Shown here: positions 34,119 to 45,851 of the stretch, one piece after another
Layout of the letters: each line of letters opens with the position of its first letter
Numbering within the stretch: the stretch's first letter is position 1
DNA from: an uncultured Granulosicoccaceae bacterium
GTDB lineage: Bacteria > Pseudomonadota > Gammaproteobacteria > Granulosicoccales > Granulosicoccaceae
Direction: 5' to 3'
Length of the DNA: 64,000 bases
Assembly (NCBI GenBank): GCA_938041955.1
Contig: CALISD010000007.1
Span: forward strand, 1-64,000
Made by a program: the position numbers and the translations under genes
Notes under the pieces: generated by a model
Told to the model about the DNA's origin: nothing
What the model saw: the letters and a program-made list of their open reading frames with translations, nothing else
Database searches by the model: none

Positions 34119-35108
34119 ATGTTTAATGCATTGGTTGTAACCCGCGATGATGACAAAAAGACAGCGGCGTCGGTTGAATCTCTTAACGTAGATCAACTGC
34201 CGGAAGGTAATGTCACGGTTGCAGTCGAGTATTCAACGGTTAACTACAAAGACGGACTTTGCATTGGTCCCGGTGGTGGTCTGGTGCGTGATTATCCGCA
34301 TGTTCCCGGGATAGACTTTGCCGGAACAGTTGAAACTTCAGATGATGATCGTTACCACGCTGGAGATAAAGTTGTGCTGACCGGCTGGCGGGTGGGTGAG
34401 GCACACTGGGGTGGCTATTCACAAAAGGCAAGGGTCAATGCTGATTGGCTGGTGCCGTTACCTGATGGATTGACCACACGGCAATCTATGGCGGTAGGTA
34501 CTGCAGGGCTGACTGCTATGCTTGCTGTTGTAGCTTTGGAGAAGCATGGTCTGAAAGATATTGATGGTCCGGTTTTAGTAACGGGCGCTGCAGGAGGGGT
34601 CGGTTCTGTTGCTACGGCAATCCTGAGTAACCTCGGGTATGAGGTTGCGGCTGTTACGGGTCGACCTGAAACTGCCGACTACCTTAAGTCGCTCGGTGCG
34701 GCGCAAATTGTGGCGCGTGAAGAGATAAATGAGACCACCAAGCGCCCGCTGGAAAAGGAAATGTGGTCCGGGTGTGTCGATGCAGTGGGCGGTGCAATGC
34801 TTGCCCGGGTGCTGGGTCAGCTCAAATACGGCAGCTCAGCGGCGGCAATTGGTTTGGCTGGTGGGGCAGACTTACCCGCCACAGTTATTCCTTTTTTACT
34901 GCGAGGGGTGAATTTACTTGGTATTGACTCTGTCATGCAGCCTTATCAAAACCGTTTGCTTGCATGGCAACGTATTGCATCTGATTTGCCGATGGATAAA
35001 CTTGAGGCGATGGTGCAACCCGCGACACTTACGGATTTGCCTGCACTTGGTAAAGCGATTCTTAAGGGTCAGGTGAAGGGTCGCGTTGTGGTAGATGTTA
35101 ACGCCTGA
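34119..35108 (+). CDS. AcuI/YhdH-family acrylyl-CoA reductase-like oxidoreductase
   Basis: VEYSTVNYKDGLCI...PHVPGIDFAGTVE...TGAAGGVGSVATAILSNLGYEVAAVTGR; AcuI/YhdH family pattern. Confidence 0.85.
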   Translation: MFNALVVTRDDDKKTAASVESLNVDQLPEGNVTVAVEYSTVNYKDGLCIGPGGGLVRDYPHVPGIDFAGTVETSDDDRYHAGDKVVLTGWRVGEAHWGGYSQKARVNADWLVPLPDGLTTRQSMAVGTAGLTAMLAVVALEKHGLKDIDGPVLVTGAAGGVGSVATAILSNLGYEVAAVTGRPETADYLKSLGAAQIVAREEINETTKRPLEKEMWSGCVDAVGGAMLARVLGQLKYGSSAAAIGLAGGADLPATVIPFLLRGVNLLGIDSVMQPYQNRLLAWQRIASDLPMDKLEAMVQPATLTDLPALGKAILKGQVKGRVVVDVNA

Positions 35109-35189
35109 GTATCGTCGCTACAGTATCCCCTTGTTTTTTCCAGATAGATGAGCACTGTGGCTAGCGTAGTGAGTCACAGTGAAACGTCA

Positions 35190-35975
35190 TCAGCCTGGTA
35201 TCAGGCTATCCAGATATTCTTTCAACTTGCTATTGAGCAACACATAGCCTTCATTATTGATATGCAGCGTGTCATAAAAAAGTGCATCAACCGGCTCGCC
35301 TTTCTGATCCAGATAGAGTGGATCAAGATCAAACCAATTAGCATCTAGTGATTCTGCGGTTTGTTGTAGCTGTGTGTTGGCGTCTTGTACCTGTTGAGAA
35401 AGTGTGTTGAACCAAAACTGCTTGCGTACGAAGTTGAGATGTTTGTTTGGAATAATTGAGGTGACGATAACTTCAATGCCCAGGGATTCCAGTGTCGAGA
35501 TAAAGTAATGCATATTGGAATGCATAGTATTTATTAACAGGGCGGGGTCTTTTATGCCTTTCGTTACTGCGGCAGTCAGGTCGTTCATACCGGCCTGGAT
35601 GATCACGTAGTTTGGTTTCAATCTAATGACGTCTCGTTCAAAACGCCGCTTCATTTCTGATGTGGTTTCTCCGGCAATACCGGCGTTGATAAAATTGTAT
35701 GTCGCGTACGCTGGCGCTGGATACCAGGTCTCTATGCGTGAATCACCATACAGCACGATGGTGTTTGGAGATTCGGTATCTGTTGAGCTCTCAATCGTCG
35801 TCGCCAGGCTGGTGCCGATCGGTAGTGCCCGGAAGTGTCGGTAGTGAGTGTACGTTTCTTTTAGTTCTGCCAAAAGATAAAGGCAAATGCAGAGCAAGCA
35901 GACGTTGGCTACCAAAGAGAGTAGCAGAAGCTTTTTCTTCCAGAGAAATTGAATAGCACTTTGCATCTGAGTCAC
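35190..35975 (-). CDS. SGNH/GDSL hydrolase, membrane anchored
   Basis: TIVLYGDSRIETW, FINAGIAGETTSEMKRRFERDV, YVIIQAGMNDL, DTLHINNEGYVLL. Confidence 0.85.
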   Translation of the reverse strand: MTQMQSAIQFLWKKKLLLLSLVANVCLLCICLYLLAELKETYTHYRHFRALPIGTSLATTIESSTDTESPNTIVLYGDSRIETWYPAPAYATYNFINAGIAGETTSEMKRRFERDVIRLKPNYVIIQAGMNDLTAAVTKGIKDPALLINTMHSNMHYFISTLESLGIEVIVTSIIPNKHLNFVRKQFWFNTLSQQVQDANTQLQQTAESLDANWFDLDPLYLDQKGEPVDALFYDTLHINNEGYVLLNSKLKEYLDSLIPG

Positions 35976-36069
35976 GAAAAGTATCAGTATACTGGGGTGG
36001 CAGATATTAGCTAACTACTTTCACGACAAAACCAACTTGTCTCTGCGAGGCTCGGAATGCCGTGAAGGT

Positions 36070-39000
36070 TTAGTTTATCGCAACATTGTCTTCGCTGAAA
36101 TCGGAATTGCCATGGTCAGTTGATGTATCCGGGAACGCGTTGAGCACCCCTGATATCACACTTTGCGCGCCTGGGTTATCGACTGAAGACAAGCCTAATT
36201 CTGAAATTTTGTAGTTGGTGACCAGGCGTCTGATCCGGCGTGGGTTAGCCAGCAGGTTAGTGGCTTCCTGTCTCTGCAGAGGCAGGCTCAGCAGGTTTCC
36301 CTGAACCTCGTCGCAGTGATGGTCCTGCAGAAATCGTAGCTGCGGCAATTCCTCAACACCCTCGCAGATAACTGTCATGCCAAGGCTGTGGCTCATTGCT
36401 ATTACACCACTGACAATTCGAGCATCTGCGGGGTTTTTATCGAAATCAGAGACAAACAAGCGGTCAATTTTTACTTTACTGATTGGGAACTGCTTTAAGT
36501 AACTCAGAGAGGCGAATCCAGTGCCGAAGTCATCGATTGATATTTCTACGCCGGCGCGGTCTAGTTTTTCCAGGGTGTTTACTGCTTTGGTCATGTCCTT
36601 CATGGCCATCGATTCCGTAATTTCAACCTCTAATGAGTTGGGAGGTATACCGAATTCACGGATTGAATCAAGGATATTGTGTGCCAGAAATTCGTTCTTC
36701 ATTTCGGCAGGTGACACGTTGACCGAGACGGTCAAGTCTGAATGACCGGCATCCCGCCACATCGATAACTGAGCACAGACTACTCGTGTTACCCAGGCAC
36801 TGATATCGTTGATCAGGCCGGTCTTTTCTGCCACTGGAATAAACTCACCCGGTGTGACGATACCCATTTCTGGATGTCGCCAACGCAGGAGTGCTTCCAT
36901 GCTCACTATTTTTCCGGACTTAAGGTCTACCTTCGGCTGATAAACGACAAACAATTCATTGCGCTGAAGTGCGTGATGTAGTGCTGTTTCGAGGCGAATT
37001 AGTTTGCGCGATGAGGTATCCAGATCATCTTGAAAATAACAAACATTGTTTTGTCCATCGGTGTCTTTCGCATCGCGCATAGCGATGCTGGCACTGCGCA
37101 TTAATTTGTCTGCATTGTCGCCATGGTCAGGGAAGATGCTGATGCCGGTGTCTAGCGCCGCGTAAATTTCGTGTCCATCTACGGAGATTGTGCGATCAAA
37201 AGCCTCCAATATTCTCGCGTGAATGACTTCTGTGTCTTCCAGGCTGTTGATGTGGTGAAGCGCAAGGCATATTTCGGTGTCGCCGTACCGTGATATCGAG
37301 ATGCTCTGTTCGTTTGATCCGATGATCGATGTGTTGGTCTCTTCTTTAAGTATATTTTTTAATCGTCTTACGATCTTTCTGTATAGCTTTTCGCTAACAG
37401 TAAAGCCTAAAGTATCGTTGATGCGATGCAACGCTTCAATTGATATGAGAAATATTCCAACACGGTAGTTGTGTCGAGTGGCAGACTGGACTGATTGTTC
37501 AAGTCGATCCAGCAGCAAGCTTCGATCAAGACGTAGTGAGTCACTCTGAGACGTAGTGTCAAGTTCAGTGACGGTGGCAGTTTCTTTTGCAGGAATTGGT
37601 TTTAGTACCGGCTTGGGAGCCGTGGGTGCAAAGAGTGGAACCACCTGACCTTCGGTTTTAGTTTTGAGTATAGGCGTTGCTTTTTTGCCTGCCGGTGGTT
37701 CGGTTTTCGTTTCGTCTTTTATTACCGGTACTGATGTACGCAGCGCCAGAATAGGTACTTTTGGCGCCTCGTTGGTCGGTGCTGACTCGGCCATTGAGTT
37801 GGCAATGTCTTGCGCGTTGAAATCGTCGGAGTCCATCTTAGAGGTGTAGTTAGTGACGCGATTTCGTCCCCCCTCTTTGGATACATAGAGTGCTTTGTCT
37901 GATTGTTCGACCATTTCACTCGGAGTTTCTGCATTTGAGTGAATTGACGCAACACCGAAACTTGCTGTGATCTGGCATTTGTCCAGAAAATCAGCACCGA
38001 TGCCGACTTCAATGATATGGCGTATTTTCTCTGCCATTGCCGCACCTTCGGTAATAGTGGTGTCAGGCAACACGATACAAAATTCTTCCCCGCCAAATCG
38101 ACCGACAAGGTCATTGGGTCTTGATTGTTCAGCCAGTACGTTTGCGAGATACTTAATCACATCATCACCAACACCGTGACCATGGGTATCGTTGACCGAC
38201 TTAAAGTGATCAATATCAGTCATGATGCAGGTGAGTTCATCGCGATTCTGCTTTGCTTCTGCAAACAGGGAGTCAAATCCGCTGAAAAACGATCGGCGAT
38301 TCAGCGAGCCAGTGAGCGGATCTCTGGTTGCCAGGTATTCGAGCTCTTTATTTTGTCGCGTGATTTCCAACTGGCTGATTTCAAGTTTTGTCAGAGCGTT
38401 TTGCAGCTCCGCGTTTTTGATCTCTACTTCAGTGATGTCATTGAAGGTGATTAACGCGCCTCTGATTTCGTTTGCGCCGGCAACAATCGGTGTTGCGTTA
38501 ACAGTGAATGTGGATAGTTGTTCGTAACCGGTATTGAGTTTTATGGTTGCACCTGGGGCCATATCGCCACCGTGCAAGAGATCGTTCCAGGGCAGAATTT
38601 CGTTGTCATCGAGTTGCCACTTTAGTGTATTGCAGTTTTGTCCGGCGAGATCTTCTGCCGGGAGGCCTGCTGTTTCTGCAAACTCGGCGTTTGAGAATAC
38701 AATCTCACCGTCTCGGTTGACTATCAACAAGCCCTCAGCGAGCGTATCGAGTGCTTTTTTGACGCGTTCCGGTATGACTGCATCGGGGTCCAGTTCGCGT
38801 AGTGTTCTTTTCAGGAAAAGGCAAAAGGCGAAGAACCCTGACAATGCGACAAAAAGAATGACTGATGGGAAAGAGGCTCGCCTGTCGAGCAAGCTTAGGC
38901 CTTCGTTTAAACCTGCAAAGCGAATTTCGACACTTGCGATCTGATTTTTGCCTTCAAACAGAGGCACTTGTACTTGAGTAGGCGTTGAGCGTTCACCAAT

Positions 39001-39471
39001 CTTCAAGGTCCAATGATTGTCGTGGCTACCATAAACATCAATGAGCCCGCCGCCTGCTTTTCGAACTGCTACAGACTTTACGATGCTATTACGTTGAACA
39101 GTAGTGCGGAGTAGTTCCGAAATCTCTTCGCTGCCTTGTCCGGAGCTGCTGTCCATTTCCATCGCGACGTGTACAGCCAGAGTCTCGACGATGAACTTTC
39201 GTTCAGACAGCTTTGCATTGTTGCTGTTCGGGAACAGGCCAAGAAATTCGCTCGCAAGCAGTAGTGAGATGACTAGCATCACCATGCTAAAGCTAATCCT
39301 GAACAAAGGAGAGCGTAAGAATTTAATCATAATTTGCACACCACCGGTACCGCGCATACTGTTATGTGGCACTTTGAGGGCCTTGTCCGTAAGGCCTTCG
39401 AATGTATTACCGGGGCTAATGGATGTCCCAGCAGCAATAATGTCGGCGCATTCATAATTTTCTAAACTCAA
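36070..39471 (-). CDS. TM - PAS - GGDEF - degenerate GGDEF - EAL protein (probable true start ATG at 39330)
   Basis: GRFGGEEFCIVLPD (intact), second GGDEF-like block ISRYGDTEICLAL (degenerate), EALLRW, EITESMAM, DDFGTGFASLSYLK, CDEVQGNLLSLPL. Confidence 0.88.
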   Translation of the reverse strand: MSLENYECADIIAAGTSISPGNTFEGLTDKALKVPHNSMRGTGGVQIMIKFLRSPLFRISFSMVMLVISLLLASEFLGLFPNSNNAKLSERKFIVETLAVHVAMEMDSSSGQGSEEISELLRTTVQRNSIVKSVAVRKAGGGLIDVYGSHDNHWTLKIGERSTPTQVQVPLFEGKNQIASVEIRFAGLNEGLSLLDRRASFPSVILFVALSGFFAFCLFLKRTLRELDPDAVIPERVKKALDTLAEGLLIVNRDGEIVFSNAEFAETAGLPAEDLAGQNCNTLKWQLDDNEILPWNDLLHGGDMAPGATIKLNTGYEQLSTFTVNATPIVAGANEIRGALITFNDITEVEIKNAELQNALTKLEISQLEITRQNKELEYLATRDPLTGSLNRRSFFSGFDSLFAEAKQNRDELTCIMTDIDHFKSVNDTHGHGVGDDVIKYLANVLAEQSRPNDLVGRFGGEEFCIVLPDTTITEGAAMAEKIRHIIEVGIGADFLDKCQITASFGVASIHSNAETPSEMVEQSDKALYVSKEGGRNRVTNYTSKMDSDDFNAQDIANSMAESAPTNEAPKVPILALRTSVPVIKDETKTEPPAGKKATPILKTKTEGQVVPLFAPTAPKPVLKPIPAKETATVTELDTTSQSDSLRLDRSLLLDRLEQSVQSATRHNYRVGIFLISIEALHRINDTLGFTVSEKLYRKIVRRLKNILKEETNTSIIGSNEQSISISRYGDTEICLALHHINSLEDTEVIHARILEAFDRTISVDGHEIYAALDTGISIFPDHGDNADKLMRSASIAMRDAKDTDGQNNVCYFQDDLDTSSRKLIRLETALHHALQRNELFVVYQPKVDLKSGKIVSMEALLRWRHPEMGIVTPGEFIPVAEKTGLINDISAWVTRVVCAQLSMWRDAGHSDLTVSVNVSPAEMKNEFLAHNILDSIREFGIPPNSLEVEITESMAMKDMTKAVNTLEKLDRAGVEISIDDFGTGFASLSYLKQFPISKVKIDRLFVSDFDKNPADARIVSGVIAMSHSLGMTVICEGVEELPQLRFLQDHHCDEVQGNLLSLPLQRQEATNLLANPRRIRRLVTNYKISELGLSSVDNPGAQSVISGVLNAFPDTSTDHGNSDFSEDNVAIN

Positions 39472-39574
39472 TCGTCACGTCTATATTCCGTGCTAAGTGC
39501 AGCGAAACAGTGTTTTTCAATCGAGCATCGCAATGCGAGCGGCAGCACATGAGATACTGCGCTCGCATAACTTT

Positions 39575-40447
39575 TTACTCTTCAACCATGCTGAGGTTGC
39601 AGCGCACACCACTGGGTATTCTCAAGCCTGAATTTGGCATTGATAACAGCACTCCAAAGGTGCCACTTGCTGCATCCGCCACACGATCTACGCTCGTTAC
39701 CACCGCGATGTGTTTTGTGCCTTCCTGGGAAGAGATGTCTAGTGTGATTTCTGCTTTCATGCCCAGCTGAATGGTATCAAGCTGCTCAACCGGTAAAATC
39801 AGCTCAACATGCAGTGGGTCGAGGTTGGCAATGCGATACACAGGTTCCGCTTCAATGTATTCTCCAACGGATTTGTACTGTTCAACAATTACACCGCTGA
39901 TGGGGCTGCGAATTGTTCTTCTTTCAAGCGCCTGGCGAGCGCGTTCTGCTTCAAGCTGAGCTATTCGTCGATTGTCTTCTTCCTGGCGGGCCTGCAGTTG
40001 GGCGATATAAGTTTCAGTTTTCACCTTGTCCATATCTTGTGCCGATATTGTCGACTCATTAAAGAGCTTCTGGTTGCGCTTCTGGGTGCGCATTCCAAAC
40101 GCCGCATTTTCGCGACGCAGGTTGAGACTGGTGTCAATTTCAGCGCGAGCGGTAGCCAGTTCGAGTGTGGCCAGCTCCACTCTTGAGTCAAGCTGTGCGA
40201 CCACTTCGCCTTTTTTGACAAAGTTGTTTCTTTCAAAGAACAGCTGATCAACCAAACCAGGAACGCTGCTACCCAGCTCGACCACATCACTTGGTTCGAT
40301 GAGGCAGTCCATTGTAGTGTCAGCGTCAGCTAGTAGAGAGGTGGCGGAGTCTTGCGCAAAAGCTGAAAACGGAATCAGCGTCAGAGCGGCGATATGTAAA
40401 CTAAAATTCAGTAGTCTCATTTGTTTCTTACCAGCGTTGAACTTCAA
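39575..40447 (-). CDS. HlyD/RND-type periplasmic adaptor (membrane fusion) protein
   Basis: Signal peptide; VVELGSSVPGLVDQLFFERNNFVKKGEVVAQLDS...RRTIRSPISGVIVEQYKSVGEYIE. Confidence 0.85.
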   Translation of the reverse strand: MKFNAGKKQMRLLNFSLHIAALTLIPFSAFAQDSATSLLADADTTMDCLIEPSDVVELGSSVPGLVDQLFFERNNFVKKGEVVAQLDSRVELATLELATARAEIDTSLNLRRENAAFGMRTQKRNQKLFNESTISAQDMDKVKTETYIAQLQARQEEDNRRIAQLEAERARQALERRTIRSPISGVIVEQYKSVGEYIEAEPVYRIANLDPLHVELILPVEQLDTIQLGMKAEITLDISSQEGTKHIAVVTSVDRVADAASGTFGVLLSMPNSGLRIPSGVRCNLSMVEE

Positions 40448-42651
40448 AACGGAAGTTTGTTAAGTAGTAGTTGTTGTGCGCTGCGCAGCCACTGCTTAGC
40501 CAGTGCTTCGCGACCATGATTGACCCGGACAAAGGCTCGTGTTCCCAGTCCGCTTGTAATGCTATGTTCTGGAAGCGCCAAATCGAATTGGAAGACTTTG
40601 TTGATCGCAGTCGTTCCGTTTTGATCTGTACTGTCTACAGCAATCTCTCCACCGCCAGCGGCACCAAGTGCGCGACTTGGGAGAGACAAGCTTCCAGCGG
40701 GAGTTTGTCTTAATATATTTGCTGGCAGTTCCTTGCCGGGTTGTTCGGCCAATCTCACTGACACGTTTCTCACTTCTTTTGCAAACAGCCCTACAGAGGT
40801 TTGCGGCACAACTACGCGGACTATTAGCTCTTCAGGGTTAACCACATAGCCGACTGCTTCACCTTTCTTGATGTATCTGCCTATTACATTGTGTTCGCCC
40901 GGTAAAACAAAGGTCCCGTCGACGGCGCTGGCCAGTGTTTGTGCTGCGCGTTCGGTTTGCAGTTCCTGCCAATCTGCTTCAACGGTAGTCATTTCTTCCT
41001 GGGTTTGTATCGCTTGAGTCGGATCGGAAAATTTCTCTGACTTATGTCGAATCGTGAGTTCCTTGTACTTGGCTGTGAGAACTTTGTCTCTTGCATCAAT
41101 ATCAGGGTTGGTCAAACGCAGTACACTGCTTCCGGCTTCTACATAGTCACCGGGGGTTGAAGTGACTTCGGAGACAAATCCGTCGACTTCAGCATAAATT
41201 TGTGCCTGATCAGGTACCCATACAATGCCTTCGGCATTGGTATATAGAGAAAACGGTATCAACGAAACCACAACTGCGATGGTGGCGGCAATAGCCGCAG
41301 TTCTGCCGATGGGTTGCATACGAAAGCCTGTAATTGATTTATCGATAAGGAGAAAGCGAATGCCACGATAAAGCGGTAAAACGATAAGCAGCGCGAGTGA
41401 CCACAAGGCCAGTGCCACACCGAGTACGAAATATTTGCTCGCCAAAAATATCGCAATGACAAATGTAATGAATACCCGGTAGAGCCAGGCTAACACTCCG
41501 TAGCATGCAAGCCATGGCCATTCCGATGCTTCTGTTACCGGAGACGGCGCATTCTTCAAGCCAAGTATGTATCGCTTCATTAGATACAAAACGTATTTTG
41601 CTGAACGGCTGTATAAGTTGGGGATTTCTATTAGATCTTGCAGGATGTAGTAGCCATCGAATCGCAACAACGGGTTTGCATTAAAGAGTATCGTCGATAC
41701 GCTACCGATCAAAAAAGCGGACAAAGCGGCGTCCTTGATTAACCCTGGTTCGACGAGAGTCCAGATGATTAGAGCGATAGCTGCAAGGAACAGTTCGACA
41801 ATCATGCCGGCTGCACTGACAAGGACACGCTTGTACTTTTCCCGAAAAGCCCAGGCGGCGGTGGCATCTACGTACGGCACAGGCATCAGTACTAACAGCG
41901 TGATACCCATTTCGTGAACTTCCCCGCCCCAGGCTTTCACCGCATAGGCGTGCGCAAATTCATGGAACGCTTTCATTATCGGGAAAAGTGCAATCATCAA
42001 GATGATGTTGCGAGGTGCGAGAATGTCTGCTTTGAGGGTGGTCGTTAGCTCTTGATAGTTCGTTACCAGCAGCATTGCTGCCAGCAAAACAACCAGAGCC
42101 CATATTACTGCACCACCGGTCGAGAAAACCGATCGCACCGATGTAATTGATCTATTGAGAAATTTATCAGGATCGTAAAGCGGAAAACGGATTGCAAGCG
42201 GGTTTAGCAATCTTTTAGTGCGATTGACGCTTTTCTCTGCCTGGTCCCTCTTAAACAATTGTTCTACGTCAGCTGGAAGCCCGGAGCGTAAGGCACCAAT
42301 GCTAAATAGTTGTATAAGTATTGTGAGCAGGTCCTGCCGTGTCGGGCAGTCCTCACCCATCTTGTGATCGATCTGACCATAGATTTCTTCTACTGTTTGA
42401 TCACCATCAAGACGACCGATGAATTCATAGGCGACATCGTTAAAGCGCAGGTGTTTGCCGCGTGCAGAGTCACTTAGTATGTACCAGCGCGCGCCACGGA
42501 ATTCATGCGGATGCGCGTTTACGTGCTTGTGCAGTTGTGGCCTAAGACCCGCGACGTGATTCCATTGTTCTGGAATCTTCTGTTCAGCGAGCTCCGGATC
42601 AACCATGTCCGGTTGTTCTGTGCCTGAATTTGCGATAGAGGAATTCACCAA
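40444..42651 (-). CDS. PqqD-like (RRE) - M50 site-2-type metalloprotease - lipoyl/HlyD-like protein
   Basis: N-term RWYILSDSARGKHLRFNDVAYEFIGRLDGDQTVEEIYGQI (PqqD-like); FHEFAHAYAVKAWGG (HExxH); NPLLRFDGYYILQD (NPxxxxDG); C-term YAEVDGFVSEVTSTPGDYVEAGSSVLRL (lipoyl/HlyD). Confidence 0.85.
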   Translation of the reverse strand: MVNSSIANSGTEQPDMVDPELAEQKIPEQWNHVAGLRPQLHKHVNAHPHEFRGARWYILSDSARGKHLRFNDVAYEFIGRLDGDQTVEEIYGQIDHKMGEDCPTRQDLLTILIQLFSIGALRSGLPADVEQLFKRDQAEKSVNRTKRLLNPLAIRFPLYDPDKFLNRSITSVRSVFSTGGAVIWALVVLLAAMLLVTNYQELTTTLKADILAPRNIILMIALFPIMKAFHEFAHAYAVKAWGGEVHEMGITLLVLMPVPYVDATAAWAFREKYKRVLVSAAGMIVELFLAAIALIIWTLVEPGLIKDAALSAFLIGSVSTILFNANPLLRFDGYYILQDLIEIPNLYSRSAKYVLYLMKRYILGLKNAPSPVTEASEWPWLACYGVLAWLYRVFITFVIAIFLASKYFVLGVALALWSLALLIVLPLYRGIRFLLIDKSITGFRMQPIGRTAAIAATIAVVVSLIPFSLYTNAEGIVWVPDQAQIYAEVDGFVSEVTSTPGDYVEAGSSVLRLTNPDIDARDKVLTAKYKELTIRHKSEKFSDPTQAIQTQEEMTTVEADWQELQTERAAQTLASAVDGTFVLPGEHNVIGRYIKKGEAVGYVVNPEELIVRVVVPQTSVGLFAKEVRNVSVRLAEQPGKELPANILRQTPAGSLSLPSRALGAAGGGEIAVDSTDQNGTTAINKVFQFDLALPEHSITSGLGTRAFVRVNHGREALAKQWLRSAQQLLLNKLPF

Positions 42652-44562
42652 TTACCAACCGATAGACCATAGCCACAATCTGACTCGATCCACAATTTTG
42701 TGAGTCCAGATCCACAGGAGTTTTCTTTTACCCATGTCAATTCTTGCGACCCCTTCCATGCCCGGTCTGAGTTCAGGTGTTGCTTTGTCGAATTCCGCTT
42801 CCACTCGAAAGTAGCTATTCCCTTCACCCGAAATCGCCATGGGATTGACTTGATCAACGGCAAAGTGAATTGGCTCGCCCGGCATCGCAGCAATAACTAC
42901 CTTGCCTTCTTTGCTATTGTCGACGCCCGCCATATCGCGCTCGTTTACCTTAACAATCACTTTATATTCTTCGGCTGGTGCTACTTCAAATAGTATGTCG
43001 CCTATAGCGACCGGAGCACCGAGAGATTGGCTAAGGTCACCACTGGTGACATAGCCGTCGTAAGGGGCTTTTAATTCTGTGCGCGCTATGCGCTCAAGTA
43101 CCAGAGAATGTTCTGCTTCGATTTGCTCAGACTTAGCCCGTAAGATGCTGAGCTCTGTTCGGGCTTTCTTTGCCAGTGCTTCCTGGTAAGCCTTTTTTAT
43201 TTTATTTTCTTCGCTTTGCCACTTTCGCAGCTCGAGTTGCAGTGTTCGATCATCGAGCGTAGCCAACAGTTGACCTTTCTTTACCGAGTCCCCGGCGCGC
43301 ACTTCGGAGGATTTGATGAACCCTGCAATTGGGGCGGCAATAACCTGAGATTGTGCGCCCTCGATGAAGGCCGGCGCTGATACAATATGGTTGCCGTTGA
43401 AAATACCAGCAAGAAAAATAGTGGCCGCAGCAATTGCTGCTACCAGTTTCAATTTAAGATGTTTGGGACCTAGCAAGCTTTGGCAGGTGGCTCGCAACGA
43501 ATCTCTGGCTTTGCTTAGAATCGATCGTTCTTCAAAACGTTTTAATTCAATGATCGGGGCAATTGCGCTTAAGACTGATTCACACCATTGCACAGTGTCC
43601 TGGTCAAATGGGTTGGATTGTGAGCGTTCAAGTGTTATCGCTCCAAACTCACTGCGGCCTTCGAGTGCAAAGGTGGCGATGCTGGAGTTTTCACTGTGGT
43701 GAGACTGCAGGTCTTTGTGTGCCTGGTCTATAACCGATTCTGCATCGGTGATTCTCGGTAGAGTAATTGTGCTGTCTTGATCAAGGCTCTCTTCCATTGC
43801 CGCTTCTATGCGTCGCACCAGTTGTGTGCGCTCGTCAAAACTCGCCAGATGAGAAATACATTCCGCACGAATGACAACCCCTTTTTTCAAACCGATTGTC
43901 ACGCGATCGCAATTTAAACGATCACTTATTCGAGCTGCGACTTCCATACACGCTTTTTGTGAGTTGGAATGCTTCAGCGCTGATGAGATTAATGACTGGG
44001 TGAATGCGCCAGCTTCAATTTGCACACCGTCAGAAATCTGGCTTAATGATTCGAGCCAAAAGCCACCCCATTGGAGGAGCTGGAGTACAACGTTTTGACG
44101 TGATTGCGGTCGAGGTGTCATTAACAGCGCAACGTAGCCAAGTGTTTTTTCACCGTCTTTGACCGGAGTAGCGATGATGTCGCCGAGCCGACCGTTCGAG
44201 TTCCCGAAAGGAATCTCAGTGGTAATTACCGGCTTATTGTTTTCAAAAGCCTGTTGTCCGGCTATCGCGAGTTTGTCTGCACCAACACCGTTTTCAGGGC
44301 GCATGGCCAGCATATTACCGCTCGCGTCGTAGACTACCCCGGTGATCACGTCTGCAATCATTTTGCACTGCCAAACCAACCACTTGTTGGCCAGTTCGCT
44401 GTTAAGGCCTTCCGCACGGACACCCGGTGCCTGAGCATAAGCTTCCTGACCGTCAGCATCATTGCTTGAATCGATCAAATGATCAGAGTGCATCTCGCCG
44501 ACGTTGGCTTGATGCAATTCGTCAGGTGCTTCGGAGGAAATTTGTTCTGCCGCAGCGTTCAT
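42652..44562 (-). CDS. GAF-domain containing HlyD-family adaptor protein
   Basis: Cytoplasmic-type N-terminal half with GAF-like region (ACMEVAARISDRLNCDRVTIGL...), one TM (LKLVAAIAAATIFLAGIF), then IAAPIAGFIKSSEVRAGDSVKKGQLLATLDDRTLQLE...ELKAPYDGYVTSGDLSQSLGAPVAIGDILFEVAP. Confidence 0.85.
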   Translation of the reverse strand: MNAAAEQISSEAPDELHQANVGEMHSDHLIDSSNDADGQEAYAQAPGVRAEGLNSELANKWLVWQCKMIADVITGVVYDASGNMLAMRPENGVGADKLAIAGQQAFENNKPVITTEIPFGNSNGRLGDIIATPVKDGEKTLGYVALLMTPRPQSRQNVVLQLLQWGGFWLESLSQISDGVQIEAGAFTQSLISSALKHSNSQKACMEVAARISDRLNCDRVTIGLKKGVVIRAECISHLASFDERTQLVRRIEAAMEESLDQDSTITLPRITDAESVIDQAHKDLQSHHSENSSIATFALEGRSEFGAITLERSQSNPFDQDTVQWCESVLSAIAPIIELKRFEERSILSKARDSLRATCQSLLGPKHLKLKLVAAIAAATIFLAGIFNGNHIVSAPAFIEGAQSQVIAAPIAGFIKSSEVRAGDSVKKGQLLATLDDRTLQLELRKWQSEENKIKKAYQEALAKKARTELSILRAKSEQIEAEHSLVLERIARTELKAPYDGYVTSGDLSQSLGAPVAIGDILFEVAPAEEYKVIVKVNERDMAGVDNSKEGKVVIAAMPGEPIHFAVDQVNPMAISGEGNSYFRVEAEFDKATPELRPGMEGVARIDMGKRKLLWIWTHKIVDRVRLWLWSIGW

Positions 44563-45116
44563 TCATGAACTCCGAGTACTGAAAATGTGAGTAAACCGAA
44601 TGATGATTCTGTCCTCGATAAGATGTCGTCGCCAAGGGTACGAGAGAGGTGACTTATTAGGGAGAGACAGCAACATCTGATCCAATCAAACGTGGTCTAC
44701 ACTGGCGTTTGTGCAGTGGTTCTCACTAAAGTGATGACCAGTCGACACTAAGAGCTTGTTGCCTGTTATTTGTAATCGCTATGTTGCTCGATGAGTGAGC
44801 GGCGCGCTTTTTTGTGAGCTTTTAATTGCAACAACATCTGCAATTTACAAACCGGCTAGGGGCACCGAGTGCCGGGTGTGGCGATTCTCAGGGTGGTTTT
44901 AGCGCGTGCGCGCCAGATCCATTCGGACAATTGCAAATGGCACACTATTAGATGGGGTTGTTCTAGTGGAAGGAAGACCCTTTTTGTCAGGGCATCGGCG
45001 TGCCAAGGATTTCCTGATTTTCACCATACCTGAAGGACAATTGCCGTACATTAGGGATCGTAAACGGAGCCTTTCTGCCCGTTGAATTTTTTGTGACTGA
45101 TAGATGAGGTGAACAA

Positions 45117-45851
45117 ATGCGGCTAGTAAAACAGTTAGTGCTTGGCGGGGTGTTATTTCTTACCGGTTGTGCCAACAACGCGGAATTGCTTGACGGTTTG
45201 GAAGAAATTGCCGGGCAAGCCATGGGTCAATCGACCGCAGCGTTGACGATCGATGATATTTCCAACGGTCTGAAGCAGGCGCTTTCAGCGGGCACCCAGC
45301 AGGTGGTCAATCAACTTGGTCAAACTGATGGATTTAACGCTGACCCGGTCATCCGCATACCGCTGCCAAGAGCACTGGTGAGTGCAAGAAAGGTGGCAGA
45401 TAAGGTTGGCATGGCGAGTAGTTTTGATTCCCTGGAAACCCGTTTAAATGAGGCGGCAGAGAAGGCGGTGCCGAATGCGCGTAGATTATTTCTCAGTGCG
45501 ATAAGTCAAATGACGCTGGCTGATGCGCGTGGCATATTGCAAGGGCCGGATGACTCTGCGACGCAATTCTTTCGCAGAACGATGGGGAATCAACTAAGCG
45601 ACTCTATGCGACCTATAATAGACAACAGTCTGTCTCAGGTAGGTGCTGTTCGTGGCTTCCAGCAACTGTTGGCAAGTTACCGGCAAATTCCATTTGCACC
45701 GCCTGTCGAGGCTGACCTGACGGCTCACGTGCTCGAAAAAGGGATGCAAGGCATCTGGCACTATATTGCGCTTGAAGAACGGGCTATACGTGAGAATCCG
45801 ATCAAGCGAACCACAGAATTAATGCGTCGGGTTTTCGGGAGTGTCAGCTAG
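45117..45851 (+). CDS. DUF4197 domain lipoprotein
   Basis: Lipobox LTGCANN; ISNGLKQALSAGTQQVVNQLGQTDGFNADPVIRIPLPRALVSARKVADKVGM. Confidence 0.85.
   Translation: MRLVKQLVLGGVLFLTGCANNAELLDGLEEIAGQAMGQSTAALTIDDISNGLKQALSAGTQQVVNQLGQTDGFNADPVIRIPLPRALVSARKVADKVGMASSFDSLETRLNEAAEKAVPNARRLFLSAISQMTLADARGILQGPDDSATQFFRRTMGNQLSDSMRPIIDNSLSQVGAVRGFQQLLASYRQIPFAPPVEADLTAHVLEKGMQGIWHYIALEERAIRENPIKRTTELMRRVFGSVS

Follow-up and report, generated by a model that had tools for sequence, protein, structure and literature searches.

What could a bacterium process or carry across its envelope with three proteins that resemble membrane-fusion adaptors, one of them joined to an intramembrane protease, when no pump is encoded beside them? 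This question is raised by an operon in the window (the whole stretch of 64,000 nucleotides analysed here, from an uncultured Granulosicoccaceae bacterium), where a sequence-only reading had described three abutting minus-strand genes. The open frames were confirmed at 42652-44562, 40444-42651 and 39575-40447, in a tight operon with the domain order GAF-TM-HlyD, RRE(PqqD-like)-M50-HlyD and periplasmic HlyD adaptor, and domain searches, profiles and AlphaFold agree on this architecture. The flanks also bear out the claim that no ABC, RND or MFS pump and no OMP gene adjoins the operon. The answer reached below is that the operon is probably a dedicated machine for the export and maturation of giant surface proteins that bear the LEPR-XLL leader.

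The features of the locus are collected in the table below. The middle gene has an alternative start at the ATG at 42606, and in the third gene, whose frame extends to the TTG at 40447, the ATG at 40420 is the likelier start, from which the signal peptide reads MRLLNFSLHIAALTLIPFSAFA; several orthologues of this adaptor have 279-282 aa. In the first protein, the GAF domain scores 23.0 bits against a cut-off of 22.4, and HlyD_D23 is matched at 8.5e-18.

Features of the three-gene operon and of the two genes that follow it (positions in the window)
Feature	Position	Strand	Basis or remark
Gene 1, GAF-TM-HlyD protein, 636 aa	42652..44562	(-)	
Gene 1, cytoplasmic GAF	43558-43959	(-)	
Gene 1, single TM, residues 369-387	43402-43458	(-)	
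Gene 1, periplasmic HlyD/barrel-sandwich arm	42757-43353	(-)	
Gene 2, RRE(PqqD-like)-M50-HlyD fusion, 735 aa from TTG 42651	40444..42651	(-)	
Gene 2, PqqD/RRE-like winged-helix domain, residues 44-117	42301..42522	(-)	AlphaFold and profiles
Gene 2, HExxH zinc/catalytic motif, HEFAH, residues 230-234	41950..41964	(-)	conservation
Gene 2, NPxxxxDG motif, NPLLRFDG, residues 326-333	41653..41676	(-)	conservation
Gene 2, C-terminal HlyD/membrane-fusion arm, residues 466-716	40504..41256	(-)	fold match, hhalign
Gene 3, periplasmic HlyD-type adaptor with signal peptide, 281 aa	39575..40420	(-)	
PAS-GGDEF-EAL protein, two TM segments; likely start ATG 39330	36070..39471	(-)	kept after the trio
SGNH/GDSL hydrolase	35190..35975	(-)	conserved after the GGDEF-EAL gene in the clade

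The domain calls on the middle protein hold up, although Pfam supports them weakly from the single sequence: HlyD_3 is matched at 6.6e-9, Peptidase_M50 at 3.4e-4 and PqqD at 0.011, the last two falling below Pfam's own cut-offs as single-domain matches. Both are upheld by family matches, by a solved PqqD structure, by the daptide protease profile and by the predicted fold. For example, 44 of the 46 members of the M50 family match M50, and the family profile matches the solved PqqD 3g2b (E=7e-4), where a PDB sequence search with the single protein gave no match. Similarly, the profile of the daptide intramembrane metalloprotease, which spans PqqD plus M50, is matched by 46/46 members, in the window protein over residues 39-425 (E=1.5e-47), and that of the YydH/LiaK epipeptide protease by 43. 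In the AlphaFold model (pLDDT 84), the PqqD-like region folds into an EEEHHH winged-helix-like domain of three strands and three helices, which can be assigned to the RREs with moderate strength, the Pfam PqqD match alone being below cut-off.

The membrane helices of the model surround the HExxH motif, which is present in 58/58 members of the full family, and NPxxxxDG is present in 55/58, both motifs lying in membrane helices as is expected of an M50/site-2 protease; residues H230, E231, H234, N326, P327 and D332 are invariant in the 46-member alignment (A2). Enzymes of this M50/S2P type cut membrane segments. The adaptor arm of the same protein finds its closest folds in MexA, AcrA and MacA (E~1e-10), aligns with the arm of the first protein (hhalign E=1.4e-15), and belongs to a part of the family profile that matches many solved adaptors.

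Each of the 13 genomes sampled from the same genus has an orthologue of the M50 gene (in one of them split by contig ends), which excludes chance. In nine of ten orthologous loci fetched from published contigs, the GGDEF-EAL gene follows the trio, the tenth locus (L012) ending within the M50 gene, and the SGNH gene comes next in eight. The GGEEF, EAL and DDFGTG motifs of the GGDEF-EAL neighbour are all intact, and it is not a degenerate receptor of the LapD type (LapD model NF045673, 126.8 vs 1020 bits). A small peptide precursor beside the operon was rejected as a candidate, no small ORF being conserved among the flanking intergenic regions of the ten orthologous loci. Extra, mutually similar ORFs of 204 and 232 residues, ending ...SALQAL..V.RNIRA, sit between the DUF4197 and GAF genes in two loci (L008, 7134-7748; L009, 6810-7508). 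PADLOC gave no match for a defence system, and a promoter scan of window positions 35000-45200 returned 0 sigma-70-like sites vs 10.9 expected in shuffles, an odd depletion.

Modules of the family occur in up to ten copies per genome (G036). Across forty mapped loci, the module is directly followed by the gene of a giant protein or by a c-di-GMP or sensor-kinase gene, and only seldom by something else; GGDEF/EAL or sensor-kinase genes stand directly downstream of most giant-less modules, compared with a single match in 228 kb taken from other places in the window genome. One sub-lineage has SecA-like proteins (Pfam SecA_DEAD 2e-84) near its modules, at nine relatives' loci, and a second, deep-branching M50 clade of five loci combines an OEP/TolC-type channel, two HlyD proteins and M50-HlyD. 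Where the contig allows, this TolC-type module is followed by a giant (L049, L073 and L042, the last being contig C211 of the window's own genome).

At eleven of the related loci, a giant directly adjoins the paralogous module. The leader common to these giants consists of a basic N-terminal segment followed by xExLExR(I/V/L)L(F/Y)SAD, and is named LEPR-XLL in NCBIfam (NF012209, a 24-residue domain); an example of the SAD type is LEALEPRVLFSADV, and leader positions E14, R19, L21, S23 and D25 are invariant or nearly so. The giants have no Sec-type hydrophobic N-terminal signal segment, and their domains are DUF4347 (PF14252), cadherin-like, Ig, lectin, laminin-G and RTX. In the TolC-containing subtype the giants carry another leader, LExRIMLDGAA, and the leader type of each module-adjoining giant is that of the module's clade, which would follow if the leader were read by the module, though the independent cases are few (three MLDGAA). 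Some leader-bearing frames are remarkably long for bacteria, with 19,427 residues in G153:C115, 15,434 and 13,412 in G107, and 12,249 in G112.

The giants of the window genome also share a conserved C-tail (the RGG tail) that is hydrophobic and finishes in a short acidic stretch. Some 30 uncharged residues around one central Arg make it up, and it lies below a simple TM threshold; its insertion into the membrane is a guess. As a universal signal the C-tail was rejected, given that the giants of other families keep the leader and end differently. Another conserved C-terminus, around 'DF..HLGQ...NPNA.LRV', was seen in the giants L192, L193 and L199 (phylum genomes G343, G112 and G475). DUF4347 was also considered as the linked feature and rejected in favour of the leader, as genome G015 has no DUF4347 match and its giant, beside the module, bears leader and tail. 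The giant of locus L067 keeps both without a DUF4347 match, which makes the leader the better marker. In genus g2, genomes G014, G019 and G022 keep the module and have no DUF4347 above the Pfam cut-off; leader matches are present in G014 and G022, the giants of which may have another N-terminal domain.

Module and leader occur together far beyond these adjacent pairs. Among 95 relatives, in which the module was defined by strong family matches and the leader by a held-out profile, 41 have both, 4 the module only, 2 the leader only and 48 neither (Fisher p=1e-19, a value computed, like that for the phylum below, on phylogenetically nested data and not corrected for kinship). All six exceptions are genomes less than 85% complete, and in the 80 genomes of at least 85% completeness the two sets coincide, with 35 having both and 45 neither. 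In a set of 397 genomes from the phylum, the 36 best M50 genomes, under a score cut chosen post hoc, were compared with the 34 that have a leader match, giving 29 with both, 7 with M50 only, 5 with the leader only and 356 with neither (p=2e-32). The seven are high-scoring M50 genomes that lack a leader match, and the five leader-only matches are weak, the frames concerned being 24-347 residues long. Fifteen of the phylum genomes have leader frame and M50 gene side by side on a single contig, with intervening frames of up to about 10,000 residues.

The genome of the window allows a more exact account. A 34-residue leader profile (A1), which contains this genome's own leaders, gives nine sites at E<=2e-10, the next match being at 0.46, and a held-out profile built from other genera only recovers 8/9 of them; a 40-residue C-tail profile also gives nine sites, at E<=6e-16, with the next at 0.63. 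Leader and tail stand together in five ORFs; the other leaders lie in four frames cut off by a contig end, and the other tails in four frames cut off by a contig start, which is most simply read as nine giants that each have both. None of the nine leader-bearing giants has a HlyD, OEP/TolC or ABC neighbour gene, and the window's module adjoins no giant gene, the link between them being in trans. The only DUF4347 giant beyond the nine, on C211, adjoins the genome's one TolC-type module and has the other leader type. For the nine giants, the genome offers no candidate of this subtype other than the window's module, though a further exporter might lie outside the assembly, which is 93.5% complete.

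Other parts of a secretion route were sought in the same genome. A canonical type I secretion system (T1SS) was rejected, as no type I HlyD lies above cut-off (TIGR01843, best 40 bits vs 208.65). Of OEP genes the genome has three, including one in C211, and none adjoins the operon; the one TolC-like protein (C122) could serve the module as its outer-membrane channel. The operon encodes no ATPase, and neither the operon nor the genome has a secondary SecA, the genome containing one full (housekeeping) SecA; a second SecA_DEAD match was rejected, being a 26-bit fragment in a 704-residue frame.

The export reading thus rests on the parts of the operon, the conservation of the motifs, the adjacency of paralogues, the co-occurrence, and the leader and tail of the orphan giants. 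In such a machine, the giants would be made with the basic N-terminal leader xExLExR-hL[FY]SAD in place of a Sec signal peptide, and this leader would be bound in the cytoplasm by the M50 protein's RRE domain. The active centre of the M50 protein may then cleave within, or close to, a segment inserted in the membrane, which could be the leader or the hydrophobic C-tail. Of the three HlyD arms, two are anchored in the membrane and one is periplasmic; together they would build a periplasmic conduit that reaches an outer-membrane channel, possibly the TolC-like protein of the genome, and the GAF domain, together with the adjoining GGDEF-EAL enzyme, may make the display of the adhesins, or their release, dependent on c-di-GMP. 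The place of cleavage is complicated by DUF4347, in which the HG and YGC motifs are invariant and the model of which finds its best fold match in 9qpe_G (1.2e-5), followed by many caspases (~3e-3 to 2e-2). Given this likeness, DUF4347 may be a cysteine protease, placed at the N-terminus, with which the giants also process themselves, and the idea that M50 cuts the leader becomes less simple.

The sequence-only reading had proposed that the operon recognises, cleaves and routes a peptide or protein substrate, with the protease as the inner-membrane component. The general scheme fits the leader-bearing giants, with cleavage and translocation as putative steps, and the peptide has given way to giant LEPR-XLL proteins encoded elsewhere. 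The placement of the protease agrees with the lack of a pump beside the window's operon, and is weakened by the SecA-like ATPase or TolC-type channel that accompanies some relatives, so that the protease is not in every case the sole candidate at the inner membrane. In a bolder version, a tentative possibility that is on balance doubtful, the RRE-M50-HlyD protein would by itself, without an ABC or SecA partner, be the core at the inner membrane of a secretion system in a class apart, which reads the N-terminal LEPR-XLL leader and brings to the cell surface proteins 4,000 to more than 10,000 residues long.

Among the alternatives, the strongest is that Sec or an unrecognised pump takes the giants through the inner membrane, and that the module's part is limited to processing, anchoring or shedding them under c-di-GMP control, in a manner like that of LapD/LapG, with M50 acting as a site-2-type protease on the C-tail or leader and the HlyD arms as a scaffold. 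The established activity of M50/S2P enzymes, the hydrophobic C-tail with its acidic end, the c-di-GMP genes beside most modules and the lack of an ATPase or recognised pore in the window would all suit such a role. It is nevertheless judged unlikely, given that three HlyD arms and the TolC or SecA-like genes of relatives suit transport better, that the giants lack a Sec-type hydrophobic N-terminus and the genome a T1SS HlyD above cut-off, and that the giants of other families do without the C-tail and yet have the leader.

A RiPP-like system, in which a small modified peptide is freed of its leader by the RRE-M50 protein and exported by the HlyD arms, would explain the PqqD-like domain and the family-wide matches to the daptide and YydH/LiaK profiles. 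It is very unlikely here, where the window protein reaches 162.6 bits, far under the daptide family cut-off of 300, no radical SAM or other modification enzyme lies near the operon, the ten orthologous loci offer no conserved small ORF, and the linked genes are those of giants. Barely credible, finally, is an ordinary efflux set or metal/drug adaptor set with its pump elsewhere, for which the link to the giants would be a coincidence of lineage sorting: the HlyD arms do match RND adaptor models (TIGR01730) and the MexA fold, but M50 and RRE parts play no role in efflux, adjacency to leader-bearing giants recurs in numerous families across the phylum, and module and leader almost always occur together where genomes are complete.

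Adjacency, co-occurrence across the phylum and the tally of one module to nine giants all tie one substrate class, marked by a short leader, to the module. If the export reading is true, the operon would provide some of the largest bacterial proteins with a route that needs no ABC pump, the surprise being that such large proteins would pass through the inner membrane with no evident motor in the operon. Granulosicoccus is a surface-attached marine bacterium that clusters on kelp surfaces (PMC8944128), and such a route would help to explain how it and other surface-attached marine bacteria display very large adhesin-like proteins.

Compared with known systems, the M50 protein shares an RRE-like plus M50 architecture with the daptide (NF041824) and YydH/LiaK epipeptide (NF058609) proteases, and differs from them in its extra C-terminal HlyD arm, in scores well under the equivalog cut-offs, and in the link of its module to giant proteins, not peptides. 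Type I secretion (HlyB-HlyD-TolC, including the export of LapA-type adhesins) has in common with the window's system a HlyD conduit, very large repeat adhesins and c-di-GMP enzymes nearby. The window's operon differs in that its flanks contain no ABC gene and its genome no type I HlyD above cut-off, in that the M50 protein occupies the inner-membrane position, and in the use of an N-terminal leader as the conserved signal. In the literature on DUF4347, LEPR-XLL and the daptide protease, nothing was found on export and no exporter was tied to LEPR-XLL.

The closest relative is the module of Kamneva, Poudel and Ward (2015), so that the arrangement, of which the sequence-only reading knew no experimental characterisation, had already been reported from bioinformatics (PMC4452313). 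According to the available text of that article, GAF-HlyD, Peptidase_M50-HlyD and HlyD/biotin_lipoyl proteins are encoded in one operon with a secondary SecA_DEAD and without an ABC transporter, an OEP gene is sometimes near, and the role is 'completely unknown'; the same text names no substrate and reports no leader-bearing giants. The window's operon encodes the same three proteins together, lacks the secondary SecA, as does its genome, and is followed by the GGDEF-EAL gene, and is thus a SecA-less version of that module, for which LEPR-XLL/DUF4347 giants are now proposed as substrates, the nine orphan giants of the genome bearing the leader. The gene set has been known since 2015, and what is new here is the substrate link together with the SecA-less, in-trans version.
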